From assembly GCA_027858795.1 (NCBI GenBank), contig JAQICF010000130.1, positions 1 through 5,724 on the forward strand: DNA of 5,724 nucleotides. The letters run 5' to 3'. The translations under genes were made by a program, and so were the position numbers. Below the pieces are notes generated by a model. It ran no database searches. It was not told where the DNA came from and was given only the letters and a program-made list of their open reading frames with translations. The stretch comes from Candidatus Delongbacteria bacterium (GTDB lineage Bacteria > Delongbacteria > UBA4055). Positions 1-5,724 of this stretch are shown in pieces (within the stretch, counting starts at the first letter, position 1; the number at the start of each line of letters is the position of its first letter).

Positions 1-1965
1 ATCATATCAAGAATCTTAAAATACAAGAACCTGTCAACATACAAAAAGAAAGCTCTTCCCCACAAACTACAGAGAAAAGAATTTGAGCATAACTGGGAGA
101 TCAGCTGTAATTACATCACTACAAAGTACATAGACAACAAAAGGCGATTCTTATACAAGATCATCCTCAGAGAAAGATCATCGGGAATAGAATTTGTCGG
201 GTTCACCTTTGAAAGATCAAATCTAAGCATTGGAATTTTTACAGACTACATTTTATACAACCTGAAAGCTGCCGGGATCAATACCAGTGACATTATTATC
301 AATGCACCAAAAAGCTCGGTATTCTCAAATATCAGAAGTGAAAAAGATACTTTCCTCGACAATATTCTCAATATCAAATACAAAGCAAAATTAACGACTA
401 CAAAAAAAGATAACATACCTAATTCAGACCTATGTAAAAACAACAATTTCTGCCTTGATGAAATTAAAACAAGCAACGAATTAATCAAATATGCATTCAC
501 TGGAATTCTTCAGAACAATCTGAATATCTTAAGCACAAATTTCAGACTAAAAGATAAGAATATAAAATCACTGTTGATCCCTCCCATAATTGTAGATGAT
601 TTCATAAATGACATAGATGCAATAAAGAACTTTGATCATTACTGGCATTCATTAAGTCAACCTGAAGTCAGGGACAATATCCTGAATGAAGTTCTAACTG
701 GGCTTAAGCAGATCGGAGACTTGAACAAAGGGAACTATGAGAACGAAAAAGCATTAAATTTATACGATAAGATCATAGCCACTCTTCAATACACAAAGAA
801 AGATAATAAGAAACTCAGAATGACCGTTTTTTATAAGAAGGGAGAGATCTATCAGCTGACAGGTGACTACTCAAATGCAATTAAGCAACTTGAGCATTCT
901 CTGGAACTTGCTGAGCACATAGATGAGTTTGATACTATCGCAGACTCAAGCTATTTACTGGGTGATCTTTTCAAAGTAACTCAATCAAATAATAATTACG
1001 ATGATTATTATAATAAAGCTCTGACAGCTACCAAATCAACTGATAATAAGATCATTAAATATTACAAAACAATGGGAATAATATATTCTCGTCAGCTAAA
1101 CTTTATGTTGGCTCTGAATAACTTCAATACCATGCTTGAAGAATCTAAAAAGCAAAATGATGATGTGAATTATTCAACTGCATTGCAACTGATTGGTGAA
1201 ACATATAAGAACATGAGCTTATTCAAAGATGCACTGGAATGTTTTACCAAAAGAATTGAAATTGAGATCGAGTTAGATGATAAATATAGACTCATGGAAT
1301 TGTATAACTCTCTTGCATTGGTAAATTATGAGCTTGAGAATTATGATGTATCATTGAAATACTTTAATATGCAGTTGGAGCTTGCAATTCAGATCGGAGA
1401 TAAAGGATCTTTAGCTATTGCTTATAAAAAAATCGCTGATATAAACTTCAATATTCTAAAAGAAAATAAGATCGCGATAAATAATTATCTAAATGCTCTG
1501 AATATATTTGATGAGATAGATGACAAAGTTAATAAATGTATGACACTTATTTTAATATCTATTGTGTATAAAAAATCAAAGAATTTCAGAAAAGCAATTA
1601 GCCTCCTTAACAAAGCTAAAACAATTTCAAGTTCGATCAATAATCATTATGTTCAATGCTGCACCGAAGGTCAACTTGGAAGTATATATTTTTATCAGAA
1701 TAAACTGGAAAGATCACTGGATTCATTTTTAGTTCAGGAGAGTATCGCTCGAGATAATAATTTTAATTCACTCCTGGCAAATTCATCAAAGTTCATTAGC
1801 TACATTTATTTAACAATGAAACGATATGCCAGAGCAGACATTTATGATACAGAAGCAAAGAAGATCTATTCTGTTCTAAATCAGCGATACGGTGAAAATG
1901 AAATAAAAAAAGATTTTATTCATCAGGAAGATGATTATTTATATTTAACCTCGCATTATAAGTAG
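1..1965 (+). CDS. Degenerate transposase-like (integrase-core) domain fused to a TPR array; 5' end outside the window
   Basis: The frame is open from base 1 to the TAG at 1963-1965, giving 654 visible residues and no visible start. TTG 574 has no ribosome site and lies inside the continuous frame, so it is not the start. Visible residues 3-11 (SRILKYKNL) resemble the end of a transposase helix-turn-helix. Residues 32-108 follow the integrase-core pattern: WEIS where active enzymes have WQID, then FLYKIILRERS, ERSNLSIGIF, a helix ending LKAAGI, and INAPKSSVF where QTDNGSEF is usual. By this ungapped alignment the catalytic Asp positions are S35 and P103, so strand-transfer activity is unlikely. 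No third acidic position was recognised. From about residue 235 to 630 there are roughly nine or ten TPR units of 36-40 residues (for example YKKGEIYQLTGDYSNAIKQL), normally a protein-protein interaction scaffold. No signal peptide or membrane segment is visible in this part. Its role is unknown; a domesticated transposase acting as a DNA-binding adaptor is inference. The gene and TPR call are secure; the transposase ancestry is likely but unproven. Confidence 0.9.
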   Translation: MISRILKYKNLSTYKKKALPHKLQRKEFEHNWEISCNYITTKYIDNKRRFLYKIILRERSSGIEFVGFTFERSNLSIGIFTDYILYNLKAAGINTSDIIINAPKSSVFSNIRSEKDTFLDNILNIKYKAKLTTTKKDNIPNSDLCKNNNFCLDEIKTSNELIKYAFTGILQNNLNILSTNFRLKDKNIKSLLIPPIIVDDFINDIDAIKNFDHYWHSLSQPEVRDNILNEVLTGLKQIGDLNKGNYENEKALNLYDKIIATLQYTKKDNKKLRMTVFYKKGEIYQLTGDYSNAIKQLEHSLELAEHIDEFDTIADSSYLLGDLFKVTQSNNNYDDYYNKALTATKSTDNKIIKYYKTMGIIYSRQLNFMLALNNFNTMLEESKKQNDDVNYSTALQLIGETYKNMSLFKDALECFTKRIEIEIELDDKYRLMELYNSLALVNYELENYDVSLKYFNMQLELAIQIGDKGSLAIAYKKIADINFNILKENKIAINNYLNALNIFDEIDDKVNKCMTLILISIVYKKSKNFRKAISLLNKAKTISSSINNHYVQCCTEGQLGSIYFYQNKLERSLDSFLVQESIARDNNFNSLLANSSKFISYIYLTMKRYARADIYDTEAKKIYSVLNQRYGENEIKKDFIHQEDDYLYLTSHYK

Positions 1966-1996: not shown

Positions 1997-2071
1997 CACC
2001 TAATATGTTGCATTTAATTGTTAAATTACTTTTTCAATTTCTTTCCATTCATAATTATCGTAATTTGGTTG

Positions 2072-2081
2072 TACAGCTGTA
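2072..2081. promoter_or_regulatory. Perfect 10-bp palindrome upstream of the ATPase pair; possible operator
   Basis: The sequence tacagctgta is a perfect palindrome 35 nt before the ATG at 2117. Short flanks ggtt (2067-2070) and aacc (2085-2088) add partial symmetry. Its position in the leader of the two-gene unit would suit a repressor site, but a 10-bp palindrome in a 150-bp gap is weak evidence and no promoter could be fixed beside it. Confidence 0.2.
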
Positions 2082-2106
2082 GCAAACCGAATCGAAAAGT
2101 AAAACA

Positions 2107-2110
2107 GGAG
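2107..2110 (+). promoter_or_regulatory. Ribosome binding site of the first ATPase gene
   Basis: GGAG lies 6 nt before ATG 2117. It decides the start: the frame is open further upstream to TTG 2018, but that codon has no ribosome site. The same site, spacing and first 15 coding bases recur at the second ATPase (3329-3353), which supports 2117 as the true start. Confidence 0.85.
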
Positions 2111-2131
2111 AAAGATATGTTAAACGCAGAA
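2107..2131 (+). repeat. Direct repeat, copy 1 (ribosome site plus first five codons)
   Basis: These 25 bases match 3329-3353 with one mismatch, in the spacer between GGAG and ATG. It is the best preserved nucleotide trace of the tandem gene duplication that gave the two ATPase genes; similarity continues at a lower level through both genes. Confidence 0.85.
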
Positions 2132-3319
2132 TTGATTAATAAAGATGAAGAACTCATCAAATTAGTAGATGACATTCTCGAAAAAGGGGTAAAAGAAAAT
2201 GCATCAGATATTCACATTGAACCATTGGCAAAATGTACACAAGTAAGATATAGAGTAAATGGTGTCCTTTATGTACCTGAAGGTTACGATAATATTCCCA
2301 AAAAGCTACATGAGTATATAATTGCAAGAATAAAAATTCTCTCAAAAACAATTAAGCTAGATGTTACTCTACTTCCACAGGATGGAGTGATAAGAAAGAA
2401 AATTGATGGGAGAAATGTCGGGTTTTCTTTACTTCTTGTTCCTACTATTTATGGTGAAAGTCTAAATGCGGTCATACACCATGAAAGAGATGGCAAATTT
2501 AGAGTTAAAGATATATTTAATAAGGACAAAGAATTAATTAAAAGATTTAATCGAAATATATCTAGAAGTGAAGGCATGATACTCTTTACAGGACTCGCTG
2601 GTTCTGGTAAAATAACCATTATCAATTCAGCTATTGATCAAATATCAAATGTTGGTAAAAAGATAGTTACTGTCGAAAATATTGTTGAAGTTGCATTAAA
2701 GAATACAACACAATTACAGATTCATGACAAAATCGGCAGAACAAGTGAACATCTGTTAAAAGTAGCGTTAAGAGCTGATGCTGATGTAATTTACGTCTGT
2801 GAATTCAGGAATTTTGAAACTGCTCTTTTAGCATTTGAAGGTTCAATGCAGGGTCGTTTAATATTTTCTACAATGCATACGAACAATGCTATAGATGCAT
2901 TATTCAGATGTACCCAAATGGGAATAAAAGAGTATCTATCCGGTAGTGGAATGCAATTTATCTTAAACTCAAAACTTGCAAAAACTGTCTGTAAACATTG
3001 CAAAGAAGAGAAAAAATATTCAAAAGCAAGTTTAAAAGCTATAGGTCTGTCTGATGATGAGATCAAAAATAATAAATTCTACAAAGGCAAAGGCTGTAAG
3101 AAATGTGATAATACAGGATATAATGGCAGAATTGCAATAATGGAAATGCTTGAATTTACTACTGACCTGAGAGAAGCATTCATAAACGGTGCAGACAAAA
3201 AACAAGTAACGAAGTTAGCTAAGAAAGAAGGCGTTTATTACACTCACAAAGATGATGCACTAAATAAATTAAAAGGTGGTTTTATTGATCTTGAAACAGC
3301 GAGAAAGTTTACACTGTAG
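2117..3319 (+). CDS. GspE/PilB-family secretion/pilus ATPase paralog, N-terminally short, with a degenerate nucleotide site
   Basis: This 400-aa protein belongs to the type II secretion / type IV pilus assembly ATPase family, cytoplasmic hexamers that turn ATP hydrolysis into pilin or pseudopilin movement. Visible landmarks in order: SDIHIEP (30-36) and PQDG (87-90) of the N2 domain, Walker A GLAGSGKI (159-166), the Asp-box region TVENIVE (185-191), Walker B region with Glu E229 in VCEFRN, His box STMHTN (251-256), and a four-Cys zinc motif, C292/C295 and C327/C330. It lacks the roughly 150-residue N-terminal domain of full PilB/GspE. PilT-type retraction ATPases do not normally carry the zinc motif, so PilB/GspE is the closer match. 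Several key residues are changed: Ile166 replaces the Thr/Ser after the Walker A Lys, Asn188 replaces the Asp-box Asp, and Ser104 replaces an Arg kept by the next gene's product. It may bind but hydrolyse ATP poorly. The next gene, 19 nt on, is its paralog. The partner machine is not visible. Confidence 0.93.
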   Translation: MLNAELINKDEELIKLVDDILEKGVKENASDIHIEPLAKCTQVRYRVNGVLYVPEGYDNIPKKLHEYIIARIKILSKTIKLDVTLLPQDGVIRKKIDGRNVGFSLLLVPTIYGESLNAVIHHERDGKFRVKDIFNKDKELIKRFNRNISRSEGMILFTGLAGSGKITIINSAIDQISNVGKKIVTVENIVEVALKNTTQLQIHDKIGRTSEHLLKVALRADADVIYVCEFRNFETALLAFEGSMQGRLIFSTMHTNNAIDALFRCTQMGIKEYLSGSGMQFILNSKLAKTVCKHCKEEKKYSKASLKAIGLSDDEIKNNKFYKGKGCKKCDNTGYNGRIAIMEMLEFTTDLREAFINGADKKQVTKLAKKEGVYYTHKDDALNKLKGGFIDLETARKFTL

Positions 3320-3328
3320 AAAATAAAT

Positions 3329-3332
3329 GGAG
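3329..3332 (+). promoter_or_regulatory. Ribosome binding site of the second ATPase gene
   Basis: GGAG lies 6 nt before ATG 3339. An in-frame ATG at 3327 overlaps this site and has no ribosome site of its own, so 3339 is preferred. This also aligns the product with its paralog from residue 1. Confidence 0.85.
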
Positions 3333-3353
3333 ATAGATATGTTAAACGCAGAA
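3329..3353 (+). repeat. Direct repeat, copy 2 (ribosome site plus first five codons)
   Basis: This is the second copy of the 25-base block at 2107-2131, with one mismatch. Because the block includes both the ribosome site and the start codon, the two genes probably have matched translation signals. Confidence 0.85.
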
Positions 3354-4538
3354 ATTATTGATAAAGATGAAGAGATAGTTAAGTTTGTAAATGATCTTCT
3401 TGAAAAAGCGGTAAAAGAGGGTGTTTCCGACGTTCATATTGAACCTCAAGCAACAAATACGAGAGTAAGATTCAGAAAAGATGGCAAATTGTATGTTGTC
3501 GAAGGCTACGATAATATCCCAAAGCAACTTCATGACTATATTATTGCTCAAGTAAAAATTCTGACCGGAACAATGAAGCTTGATGTCAAAACCCGTCCTC
3601 AGGATGGAAAGATAATATTTTTTGCTTATGACAAGCGCTTTGTCTTTAGATTACTCCTTTATCCAACTATTCATGGTGAAAGTATCAATATTTATAATAT
3701 GGATGATCAGGTAAAACATTATTCCATTGAAGAGTTATTTAATAATGATACTAAGTTGATCGAAATGTTTAGAAGGAATCTTAAAAAGGAAGAAGGTTTG
3801 TTCCTTTTTACAGGTCCATCAACTGCAGGAAAATCAACTTTTATAGCCTCAACCATAAACGAACTTGCAGATACAGGTGTTAAAATTAGAACAATTGAAG
3901 ATCCTGTTGAATTGCAAATGGATAATACAGATCAGATACAAATTTCTAATAACATTAGCATGCTTACGGCTTGTAGACAAGCTTGCAGAGGAGATGTAGA
4001 TGTTCTTTACATAAGTGAATTAAGGCAATTTGAAGTTGCACACATAGCTTTGGAAGTGGGTACAAATAAAGGATACAAAGTTATATCTACTATGCATACA
4101 AATAATGGGATATCTACATTATTTAGATTTACTGAAATGGGAATTAAAGAGTATATGACAGCATCATGTTTAGAATTGGTTGTTGGTCTCAGGAGAACTA
4201 AAAAATTATGTCCGCATTGTAAAGAAAAAGCAGACTTATTAGAAAGTGAGTTTAAAGGATTTGGTTTAACTGAAAAAGAAATTCAAAATGGTAAGTTCTA
4301 CAAAGCTAAAGGATGCGATAAGTGTTTCAACACAGGCTATGCGGGCAAACTTGCATTAGTTGAGATGCTTGAATTTACCAGATCCTTGAAAGATGCATTC
4401 GTAAAAGGTGCTGACCCAGAAGAAATGGAAAAGCTTGCAAAAAAAGAAGGAGTAATCCATACATTTGCAGATGATACTCGAAGAAAATTTCTAAATGGTG
4501 ACATTGATATCGAAGAAGCAATAATGTTTATGTTCTAG
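3339..4538 (+). CDS. GspE/PilB-family secretion/pilus ATPase paralog, N-terminally short, key nucleotide-site residues intact
   Basis: This 399-aa protein is the paralog of the preceding gene; 40 of the first 60 residues are identical by eye. Landmarks: SDVHIEP (30-36), RVRFRKDG (42-49), RPQDG (86-90), Walker A GPSTAGKS (159-166), Asp box TIEDPVE (185-191), Walker B region with Glu E227 in ISELRQ, His box STMHTN (250-255) and a zinc motif, C291/C294 and C326/C329. Walker A Lys165-Ser166, Asp188 and Arg104 are present, so ATP hydrolysis is plausible, unlike its neighbour. Like its neighbour it lacks the N-terminal domain of full PilB/GspE, and the usual GE(I/V)RD after Walker B reads SELRQ. 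It sits 19 nt after the first ATPase and is followed by a strong terminator, so the two are almost certainly co-transcribed. A hetero-oligomer with the degenerate paralog is an inference. No pilin, platform or secretin gene is in view, so the substrate is unknown. Confidence 0.94.
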   Translation: MLNAEIIDKDEEIVKFVNDLLEKAVKEGVSDVHIEPQATNTRVRFRKDGKLYVVEGYDNIPKQLHDYIIAQVKILTGTMKLDVKTRPQDGKIIFFAYDKRFVFRLLLYPTIHGESINIYNMDDQVKHYSIEELFNNDTKLIEMFRRNLKKEEGLFLFTGPSTAGKSTFIASTINELADTGVKIRTIEDPVELQMDNTDQIQISNNISMLTACRQACRGDVDVLYISELRQFEVAHIALEVGTNKGYKVISTMHTNNGISTLFRFTEMGIKEYMTASCLELVVGLRRTKKLCPHCKEKADLLESEFKGFGLTEKEIQNGKFYKAKGCDKCFNTGYAGKLALVEMLEFTRSLKDAFVKGADPEEMEKLAKKEGVIHTFADDTRRKFLNGDIDIEEAIMFMF

Positions 4539-4651: not shown

Positions 4652-5724
4652 TTGAAAAGAATAATAATATTAGCTATCATTTTGGTTGTTTTTCTCTTTA
4701 GTTGTTCAAAAAACGAAAAGAATTATACCGTATCAGAAATTAATGGAATAAAATTATTTAGCAACAAGAATATTCCATCAGACTCGACTTTCAAGATAAC
4801 TCCTAAAGAGTTGTACACAATTGAATTAAATGAAAACAATCCAGATACTGCTCTCAGTAACATTGGTGTAAGGAATTTATGTATTGATAAAAATAAAAAT
4901 GTATACATGCTTGACACTCGGAGAGCTATGGTCCATAAAGTTGATTCTCAAGGCAAATATGTAACAAGTTTTGGTAACAAAGGAACAGGTCCGGGTGAAA
5001 TGACCATGCCTTTAAATATAGCAGTCATGAGTGATACCTTATATGTTTTTGATTATGCTGAAAGAAAGACAAATATATTTGATCTCGATGGAAATTTTGT
5101 TAAAGCAGATTTCATAGCTTCAAATGCTTTCTTTTATTCTATTTCTGGAGTCAATGATGAATGTTTTACAGGGATACTAGCTTTAGACAGATACGGTGAT
5201 GAAGGTGTTTACACAGTTTATCAAGTACCGATCTATAAAAGAAATTCTACGCCATATAAAGAGCTGTATAACAGAGAAGAAATACTACAACCACCAAACG
5301 ATCGCTTCTTCCCTCAAAGTTTTCAACCGTCTTATGCTGTTGGACATAATAAGATTTATCTTTTAGAAAATAGCCAAGATACTTATAAAATTTCTGTTTT
5401 TGACCCTGAAGGAGTAAATTTATATAACTTAAGAAAGAATTACAGAAAACTTAGGATGAAGGAAATAGATGTGGAAGAACATGGTGAACTTGGGTTAAAG
5501 TTCTTAGATATTCTAAAATTCAAAAATGTATCTGACCAGTTTGGACTCCATGTAACAAAAGATGATTACCTCTTGGTTAAAAAGTCGATCGATAGAACTG
5601 AAGAAAATAAGTATGATTATATTGTTGATGCTTTTAAAGATGGTGTCTTCATAAATTCATTCAATCTTGGTATAGGTAAAGCATATGACTATTCTTATGG
5701 TCTTCACAAAAGGTGGTTTTTAGA
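4652..5724 (+). CDS. Lipoprotein, probable 6-bladed beta-propeller (NHL-like) protein; 3' end outside the window
   Basis: The frame runs from TTG 4652 to the window edge without a stop, giving 357 residues. The N terminus is a textbook lipoprotein signal: MKR, a hydrophobic stretch (residues 4-16) and the lipobox LFSC with Cys18, followed by a charged linker. The mature protein should be lipid-anchored outside the cytoplasmic membrane. Propeller-like repeats follow: NVYMLDTRRAMVHKVDSQGK (83-102), the characteristic FGNKGTGPGE (107-116), and LYVFDYAERKTNIFDLDGNF (130-149); a further blade reads IYLLEN, then ISVFDPEG. This blade style is typical of the 6-bladed beta-propeller lipoproteins abundant in Bacteroidetes and relatives, most of which have no known ligand. 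It starts 113 nt after the ATPase pair, beyond a terminator, so it is a separate unit. The fold assignment is from motif recognition only; the function is unknown. Confidence 0.92.
   Translation, partial: MKRIIILAIILVVFLFSCSKNEKNYTVSEINGIKLFSNKNIPSDSTFKITPKELYTIELNENNPDTALSNIGVRNLCIDKNKNVYMLDTRRAMVHKVDSQGKYVTSFGNKGTGPGEMTMPLNIAVMSDTLYVFDYAERKTNIFDLDGNFVKADFIASNAFFYSISGVNDECFTGILALDRYGDEGVYTVYQVPIYKRNSTPYKELYNREEILQPPNDRFFPQSFQPSYAVGHNKIYLLENSQDTYKISVFDPEGVNLYNLRKNYRKLRMKEIDVEEHGELGLKFLDILKFKNVSDQFGLHVTKDDYLLVKKSIDRTEENKYDYIVDAFKDGVFINSFNLGIGKAYDYSYGLHKRWFL

Follow-up and report, generated by a model that had tools for sequence, protein, structure and literature searches.

TPR-containing one-component regulators, such as MalT and the members of the RRNPP group, join an HTH to a TPR module that receives a ligand or a partner. 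The IS21 transposase IstA is active and works together with the IstB ATPase, and catalysis has been lost in the bacterial protein TldR. DDE transposases of the IS481 type, which are described by NCBIfam model NF033577, begin with a two-part HTH and continue into an RNase H-like core. Metazoan transcription factors derived from transposases are well documented (PMC10027918), and the RNA-guided TldR represents a transposase-derived regulator in bacteria (PMC13418256); in both cases an enzyme of a mobile element has been kept as a regulator, as is proposed here.

The present family was met in a stretch of 5,724 nucleotides from a Candidatus Delongbacteria bacterium (contig JAQICF010000130.1), referred to below as the window. 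It shares with the IS481 transposases the two-part HTH and the RNase H-like core, with the profile spanning both in some members, but differs from them in that all 31 aligned rows lack the first catalytic Asp, in the gain of a TPR array and in that flanking inverted repeats were not found in five regions. It resembles MalT and the RRNPP group in combining HTH and TPR, whereas its HTH matches transposase models and is separated from the TPRs by a dead integrase core. Compared with the catalytic core of retroviral integrases, the family has lost the acid triad and retains about 9% identity. The domain arrangement differs from that of IstA (PDB 8b4h, 8q4d), since the model of a close homologue, L002, compares with it at an rmsd above 20 Å. 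The metazoan factors and TldR derive from other element families, and TPRs were not met in the excerpts describing either (PMC10027918; PMC13418256).

Among the best matches in the open-licence PMC literature, neither the combination of an HTH/integrase core with TPRs nor a bacterial regulator built on a dead DDE core was found. Transposase-derived regulators are already known, and what seems to be new is the domain combination, the phylum-wide expansion and a branch without the HTH. It seems that within one bacterial phylum a dead transposase joined to a TPR module has multiplied into a family of paralogues, a feature masked by the public name 'tetratricopeptide repeat protein', which hides the transposase-derived part. 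The HTH-core-TPR proteins, the HTH-less core-TPR proteins and the Asp-bearing transposases found elsewhere provide a series on the path from transposase to host protein. We regard the family as a domesticated IS481-like transposase that serves as a putative DNA-binding regulator, with a probability of roughly 0.6; that it originated as an IS481-like transposase, has a dead core and is maintained by selection is close to certain.

The gene in the window and its N-terminal HTH

The gene occupies positions 1..1965 of the forward strand and encodes the C-terminal 654 residues of an HTH - dead integrase core - TPR protein, as assigned from the open reading frame, Pfam and homologues. The preliminary description had claimed a single uninterrupted frame, and this is present: it is open at window base 1 and ends in a TAG codon. 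The protein on contig JAQIDB010000198.1 (L001), from another Candidatus Delongbacteria MAG, is 96% identical to it (residues 1-653), and L002, from MAG GLR157, is 84% identical. The full-length homologues L002 and P0002 contain 746 and 745 residues, respectively, and from the length of L002 about 102 N-terminal residues are missing from the window. The N terminus, which the preliminary description had proposed to read from upstream sequence, is thereby known from these two relatives, in which the missing residues form the two-part HTH; the gene in the window itself is entered some 102 residues in, with the HTH beyond base 1. The contigs of L001 and the window begin at one and the same codon of the family gene. 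A repeat-driven assembly break at base 1 was considered and rejected, as only diverged paralogues (26-30% identical) of the upstream segment were found in genome G001. A search of viral contigs for relatives of the window protein found none, and at NCBI the relatives are named 'tetratricopeptide repeat protein' (for example P0006) or 'hypothetical protein', with one labelled Cloacimonadota.

Of the HTH pair, only the final part of its last helix, corresponding to homologue residues 103-110, is predicted to fall within the window (1..24, forward strand), based on alignment and on helix 101-110 of the L002 model. The N-terminal residues of the full-length relatives match HTH_28, HTH_32, HTH_Tnp_Tc3_2 and other Pfam models, several of these matches lying below the curated cut-off, and all ten of the scanned family members match NF033577 over the HTH at E<=0.01, the window being cut before this region. 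Judged from such sequence matches, the N-terminal region of the relatives is an HTH pair of the transposase type. It is present in 33 of 41 distinct members, with columns W41 and G49 almost invariant. When the family profile was searched against PDB sequences, matches were confined to the HTH region (best E 0.0012, to SETMAR), and an HH profile comparison with five transposases from the genomes that carry the family aligned the HTH alone (74 columns, probability 72%). DNA binding would more likely be a function of this HTH pair, which precedes the window, than of the dead core.

The degenerate core and the TPR array

The degenerate RNase H-like integrase/transposase core is placed at 82..573 on the forward strand (residues 28-191, mapped from L002 residues 130-282) by AlphaFold prediction, PDB comparison, the IS481 model and alignment with transposases. 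Pfam alone would have overlooked it, since the rve model matches neither the window nor P0002-P0005 (E<=1), nor any of ten members (E<=0.05). The integrase-core pattern put forward in the preliminary description therefore goes undetected by Pfam in the window taken alone, and is recovered by the IS481 model in homologues, by the AlphaFold and PDB comparison and by the family profile. In homologues such as P0002 the match to the NCBIfam IS481 model extends across the HTH and on into the core (residues 12-157, E 1e-17), and the profiles of homologues do match integrase-core transposases. A predicted structure other than RNase H-like would have counted against the pattern; the AlphaFold model of the L002 core, which is 80% identical to the window over this region, is RNase H/integrase-like, and its best Foldseek matches are IstA and HIV integrase. 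When the HTH-core alignment was searched against a protein database, none of 5027 candidates matched at E<=0.001. On sequence comparison the nearest transposase family is IS481-like.

With respect to catalysis, residue 129 of the L002 model pairs with integrase residue 57 in the PDB comparison, and ungapped extension from this pair brings integrase residue 64, which we take to be the first catalytic Asp, to L002 residue 137 and so to Ser35 of the window protein (103..105, forward strand). Alignment with transposases also places the first Asp in the Ser35 column, which holds Asp in none of the 31 family rows, window included, and in all four transposase rows (L143, L144, L146 and L147). The residue is replaced by N, S, T, K, Y, F, R, L, Q or V in the family, and its loss extends to all 31 aligned rows. 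The earlier assignment of Ser35 as a dead catalytic position is thus borne out, whereas that of Pro103 (307..309, forward strand) is less firm: it lies near the second catalytic Asp position in the alignments, the exact column is uncertain, and the transposase alignment sets the second Asp opposite Phe108 instead, neither residue being acidic. In the Pro103 column Asp occurs in none of the 31 rows, 24 of which are gapped there; in the Phe108 column it occurs in one family row (L113) and in three of the four transposases, those that reach the column. Glu is found at the third position in one of 31 family rows, the transposases having E in L143 and L144 and Q in L147. The D-D-E triad is consequently not intact in the family (first Asp 0/31, second 1/31, Glu 1/31), the latter two counts being weaker than the first as their columns are poorly aligned across the family.

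Ten TPR-type helical hairpins follow at 661..1890 of the forward strand (residues 221-630, mapped from L002 312-722), as placed by Pfam and the L002 model. The TPR models score far above their Pfam cut-offs in the window (TPR_12, 97.3 bits against a cut-off of 30.1, E 6e-28). The full-length L002 model, made from 27 rows (pLDDT 83.3, pTM 0.69), has helices that form ten hairpins over residues 312-722 of 746, as paired by the analyst from the model's helix list, and the initial estimate of about ten TPR units is accordingly correct. TPR matches are also present in P0002-P0005, in nine of ten scanned members, the tenth (L010) being truncated where its contig stops, and in both of the HTH-less members that were scanned; matches to TPR_MalT in the window and the P proteins stay below that model's own cut-off. 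When four family proteins were compared with a defence library, three gave a generic TPR match and one gave no match. Among TPR frames of the same genomes that lie outside the family, a histidine-kinase or GGDEF output domain is present in six of the seven scanned; TPR arrays thus act in signalling proteins there, which lends support to viewing the array in the family as an input or partner module.

Spread, related transposases and selection

P0002 finds a match in all 13 genomes of the phylum, although the HTH-core profile A3 gives a better count because the P0002 matches take in similarity of the TPRs alone. Derived from 21 family members and used at E<=1e-6 with at most 15 candidates scored per genome, A3 also matches 13 of 13 genomes, with 2 to 13 matches each. 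Homologs with the equivalent fusion, for which the preliminary description had proposed to look, occur on many contigs. The profile was built without the window, the P proteins, the HTH-less members, L122, L119 and L120/L003, and A2 without L119 and L120/L003; L001-L003 come from named Delongbacteria MAGs, the other ten genomes having been assigned by the phylum grouping of the search. The fetched loci hold 42 members, or 41 distinct ones given that L125 and L002 are one gene. With a local profile, 22 of these show both HTH and core within a single frame, 11 an HTH without a core and 8 a core without an HTH, the last group including L001, which is cut as the window is, the remnant L120 and the broken L119. 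Nine of the 11 seemingly coreless members (L096, L099, L100, L101, L107, L108, L114, L115 and L116) match A3 far past the HTH, which leaves a true HTH-TPR form only for L087, where A3 aligns over positions 1-116 only, and perhaps for L121, which is absent from the listed matches.

Five HTH-less genes from five genomes (L109-L112 and L123) form a clade with an SH-aLRT of 99, which fits a single loss of the HTH; in this quick tree, which has four long branches and excludes L120, L003, L125 and P0001, the clade groups with the HTH-bearing L086 and L092 at only 84. The retention of these five genes means that DNA binding is not the sole role of the family. Their survival, together with the wider retention of the core implied by the nine members that A3 matches far past the HTH, would also suit a protein-binding scaffold of core and TPRs that has no role on DNA and for which the HTH is dispensable. 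We hold this to be unlikely, as the HTH is kept in so large a share of the members and its W41 and G49 hardly vary.

Outside the phylum, transposases match the family profile. Of 145 relatives of G001 searched with A3, 27 match, comprising the 13 phylum genomes and 14 of the 132 others, and in these 14 none of the frames with a listed match exceeds 459 residues, which is too short for a fusion. Of the twelve matching regions that were retrieved, eleven belong to genomes of other phyla. A3 is covered over positions 2-224 by L143 and 20-200 by L144, that is over HTH and core, and L143 and L147 cover the IS481 model nearly whole (2-282 and 8-283 of 284). The cut-off of that model (224 bits) is not reached by the best member, P0002 (64.5), or by the transposases L143 (104.7) and L147 (102.8); that none of the 13 phylum genomes passes it says little, because none of 14 control genomes does either.

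Dead transposases with an intact HTH can in principle inhibit transposition. The family might on this account act in trans, occupying the ends or poisoning the complexes of IS481-like elements, with the TPRs oligomerising or binding a partner. HTH and core do appear to descend from such elements, and frames of transposase length that match the IS481 model occur in at least five of the 13 genomes (G001, G005, G009, G011 and G013). However, six of the 13 are without any rve match at E<=1e-5 and yet the family is kept in all 13, which makes inhibition less likely, and the low identity of members outside the window's own group to L002 (19-31%) suits many targets more than one element. Overall, this alternative is distinctly unlikely.

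Both parts of the protein are under strong purifying selection. In the pairs window/L001, window/L002 and L001/L002, two methods give a dN/dS of 0.05-0.10 for core residues 26-175 and of 0.04-0.09 for the TPR part, or 0.04-0.10 over both, which answers the question about selection raised in the preliminary description. A decaying pseudogene or an assembly artefact, against which the long intact frame had already been cited, could be invoked for the remnants L003/L120, with in-frame stops, and L119, in a broken copy (bin S2.13 and G005), or for the common starting codon of the L001 and window contigs. This explanation is contradicted by the repetition of the domain order on many separately assembled contigs, by complete frames of about 670-900 residues and by these low ratios, and it retains almost no probability.

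Proposed mechanism and gene neighbourhood

If the family does consist of domesticated regulators, the two-part HTH of an IS481-like ancestor would have been retained as a sequence-specific DNA-binding unit, seen in the relatives and lying beyond the window here. The DDE core has lost its metal-binding residues and persists as a folded scaffold that probably serves to dimerise the protein or to make a further contact with DNA or a partner, and the ten TPRs would have been gained at the C terminus as a sensor or partner interface. We infer that the product is most likely a one-component regulator in which the TPR array would engage a signal, either a protein or a peptide, the HTH would sit on a promoter and the core would couple both. 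A wider scheme can be offered only tentatively: a captured IS481-type transposase may have given rise to one-component regulators across the phylum, the dead enzyme providing HTH and dimer scaffold and the TPRs sensing, with paralogues that control an adjacent surface or secreted protein (putative type IX-like export) and one branch that lost the HTH and kept core and TPRs as a protein-only module.

No constant partner gene was found beside the family genes on the fetched loci. The largest cluster of neighbours contains 21 ORFs in 16 loci, and all seven that were scanned carry Por_Secre_tail, the secretion C-terminal sorting domain; the other large cluster contains two-component proteins (3 of 13 scanned), and in neither are the scanned proteins recombination proteins. 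A tail neighbour is present for 10 of 42 members, being divergently upstream in 6 of 42, and the tail fills 11 of 72 neighbour slots (binomial p 2e-7 to 1.3e-4 at assumed gene rates of 2 to 4%). After removal of ORFs below 110 residues, it is found in 13 of 71 immediate neighbours, compared with 8 of 172 genes elsewhere in these loci (Fisher p 0.0011). At least 615 tail matches occur over the 13 genomes (~33 Mb), 150 of 159 candidates having been scored in one of them. The enrichment is a lead only, because seven of the tested neighbours served as seeds for the local tail profile and the loci are non-independent, with six of the ten tail-positive members coming from G005 and L102, L104 and L117 being orthologues in which a tRNA-Sec gene separates family gene and neighbour. 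A link between the paralogues and adjacent secreted-protein genes is thus possible but doubtful.

No clear operator emerged when the upstream regions of two orthologue groups were aligned, and the conserved block of one group is a tRNA-Sec gene (RF01852), missed by ARAGORN, on the strand of the family gene (L102 5790-5885, L104 6835-6930, L106 1827-1922, L117 874-969). It lies directly upstream of the four orthologous family genes and separates each from a divergently oriented gene (LTD/CARDB/CHU_C in L104). The tRNA-Sec gene is a common integration site. Its position beside four orthologues, the transposase origin of the family and the divergent neighbour of the L002 gene, which encodes not a secreted protein but an ATPase of the PtuA/retron I-A type (L002 2-1759, reverse strand, from the defence library), would be consistent with an accessory or targeting subunit of a current mobile element or DNA-processing machine, whose TPRs recruit an active partner. 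Such a role is nevertheless highly unlikely: purifying selection is strong, a constant partner is lacking, the large neighbour clusters hold secretion-tail and two-component proteins where scanned, and no inverted repeat pair with arms of at least 16 flanks the gene in five regions, though short or diverged ends could escape, the window opens inside the gene and the L002 contig ends shortly past it.

Downstream of the family gene, the window encodes two tandem T2SSE/PilB-like ATPases according to Pfam (2018-3319 and 3327-4538), other pilus genes not being in view; the Walker A motif is altered in the first (GLAGSGKI) and intact in the second (GPSTAGKS). In L001, frames that by eye resemble these ATPases lie at 3728, 6245 and 7464, and a pair of putative HipA-like pieces (2369-3696), also identified by eye and absent from the window, is found between the family gene and the ATPases. 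A 6-bladed propeller adjoins the ATPases in both loci (window 4652-5722, DUF5128 in Pfam; L001 5059-6219), and propeller-like ORFs are also present in L100, L103 and L121.
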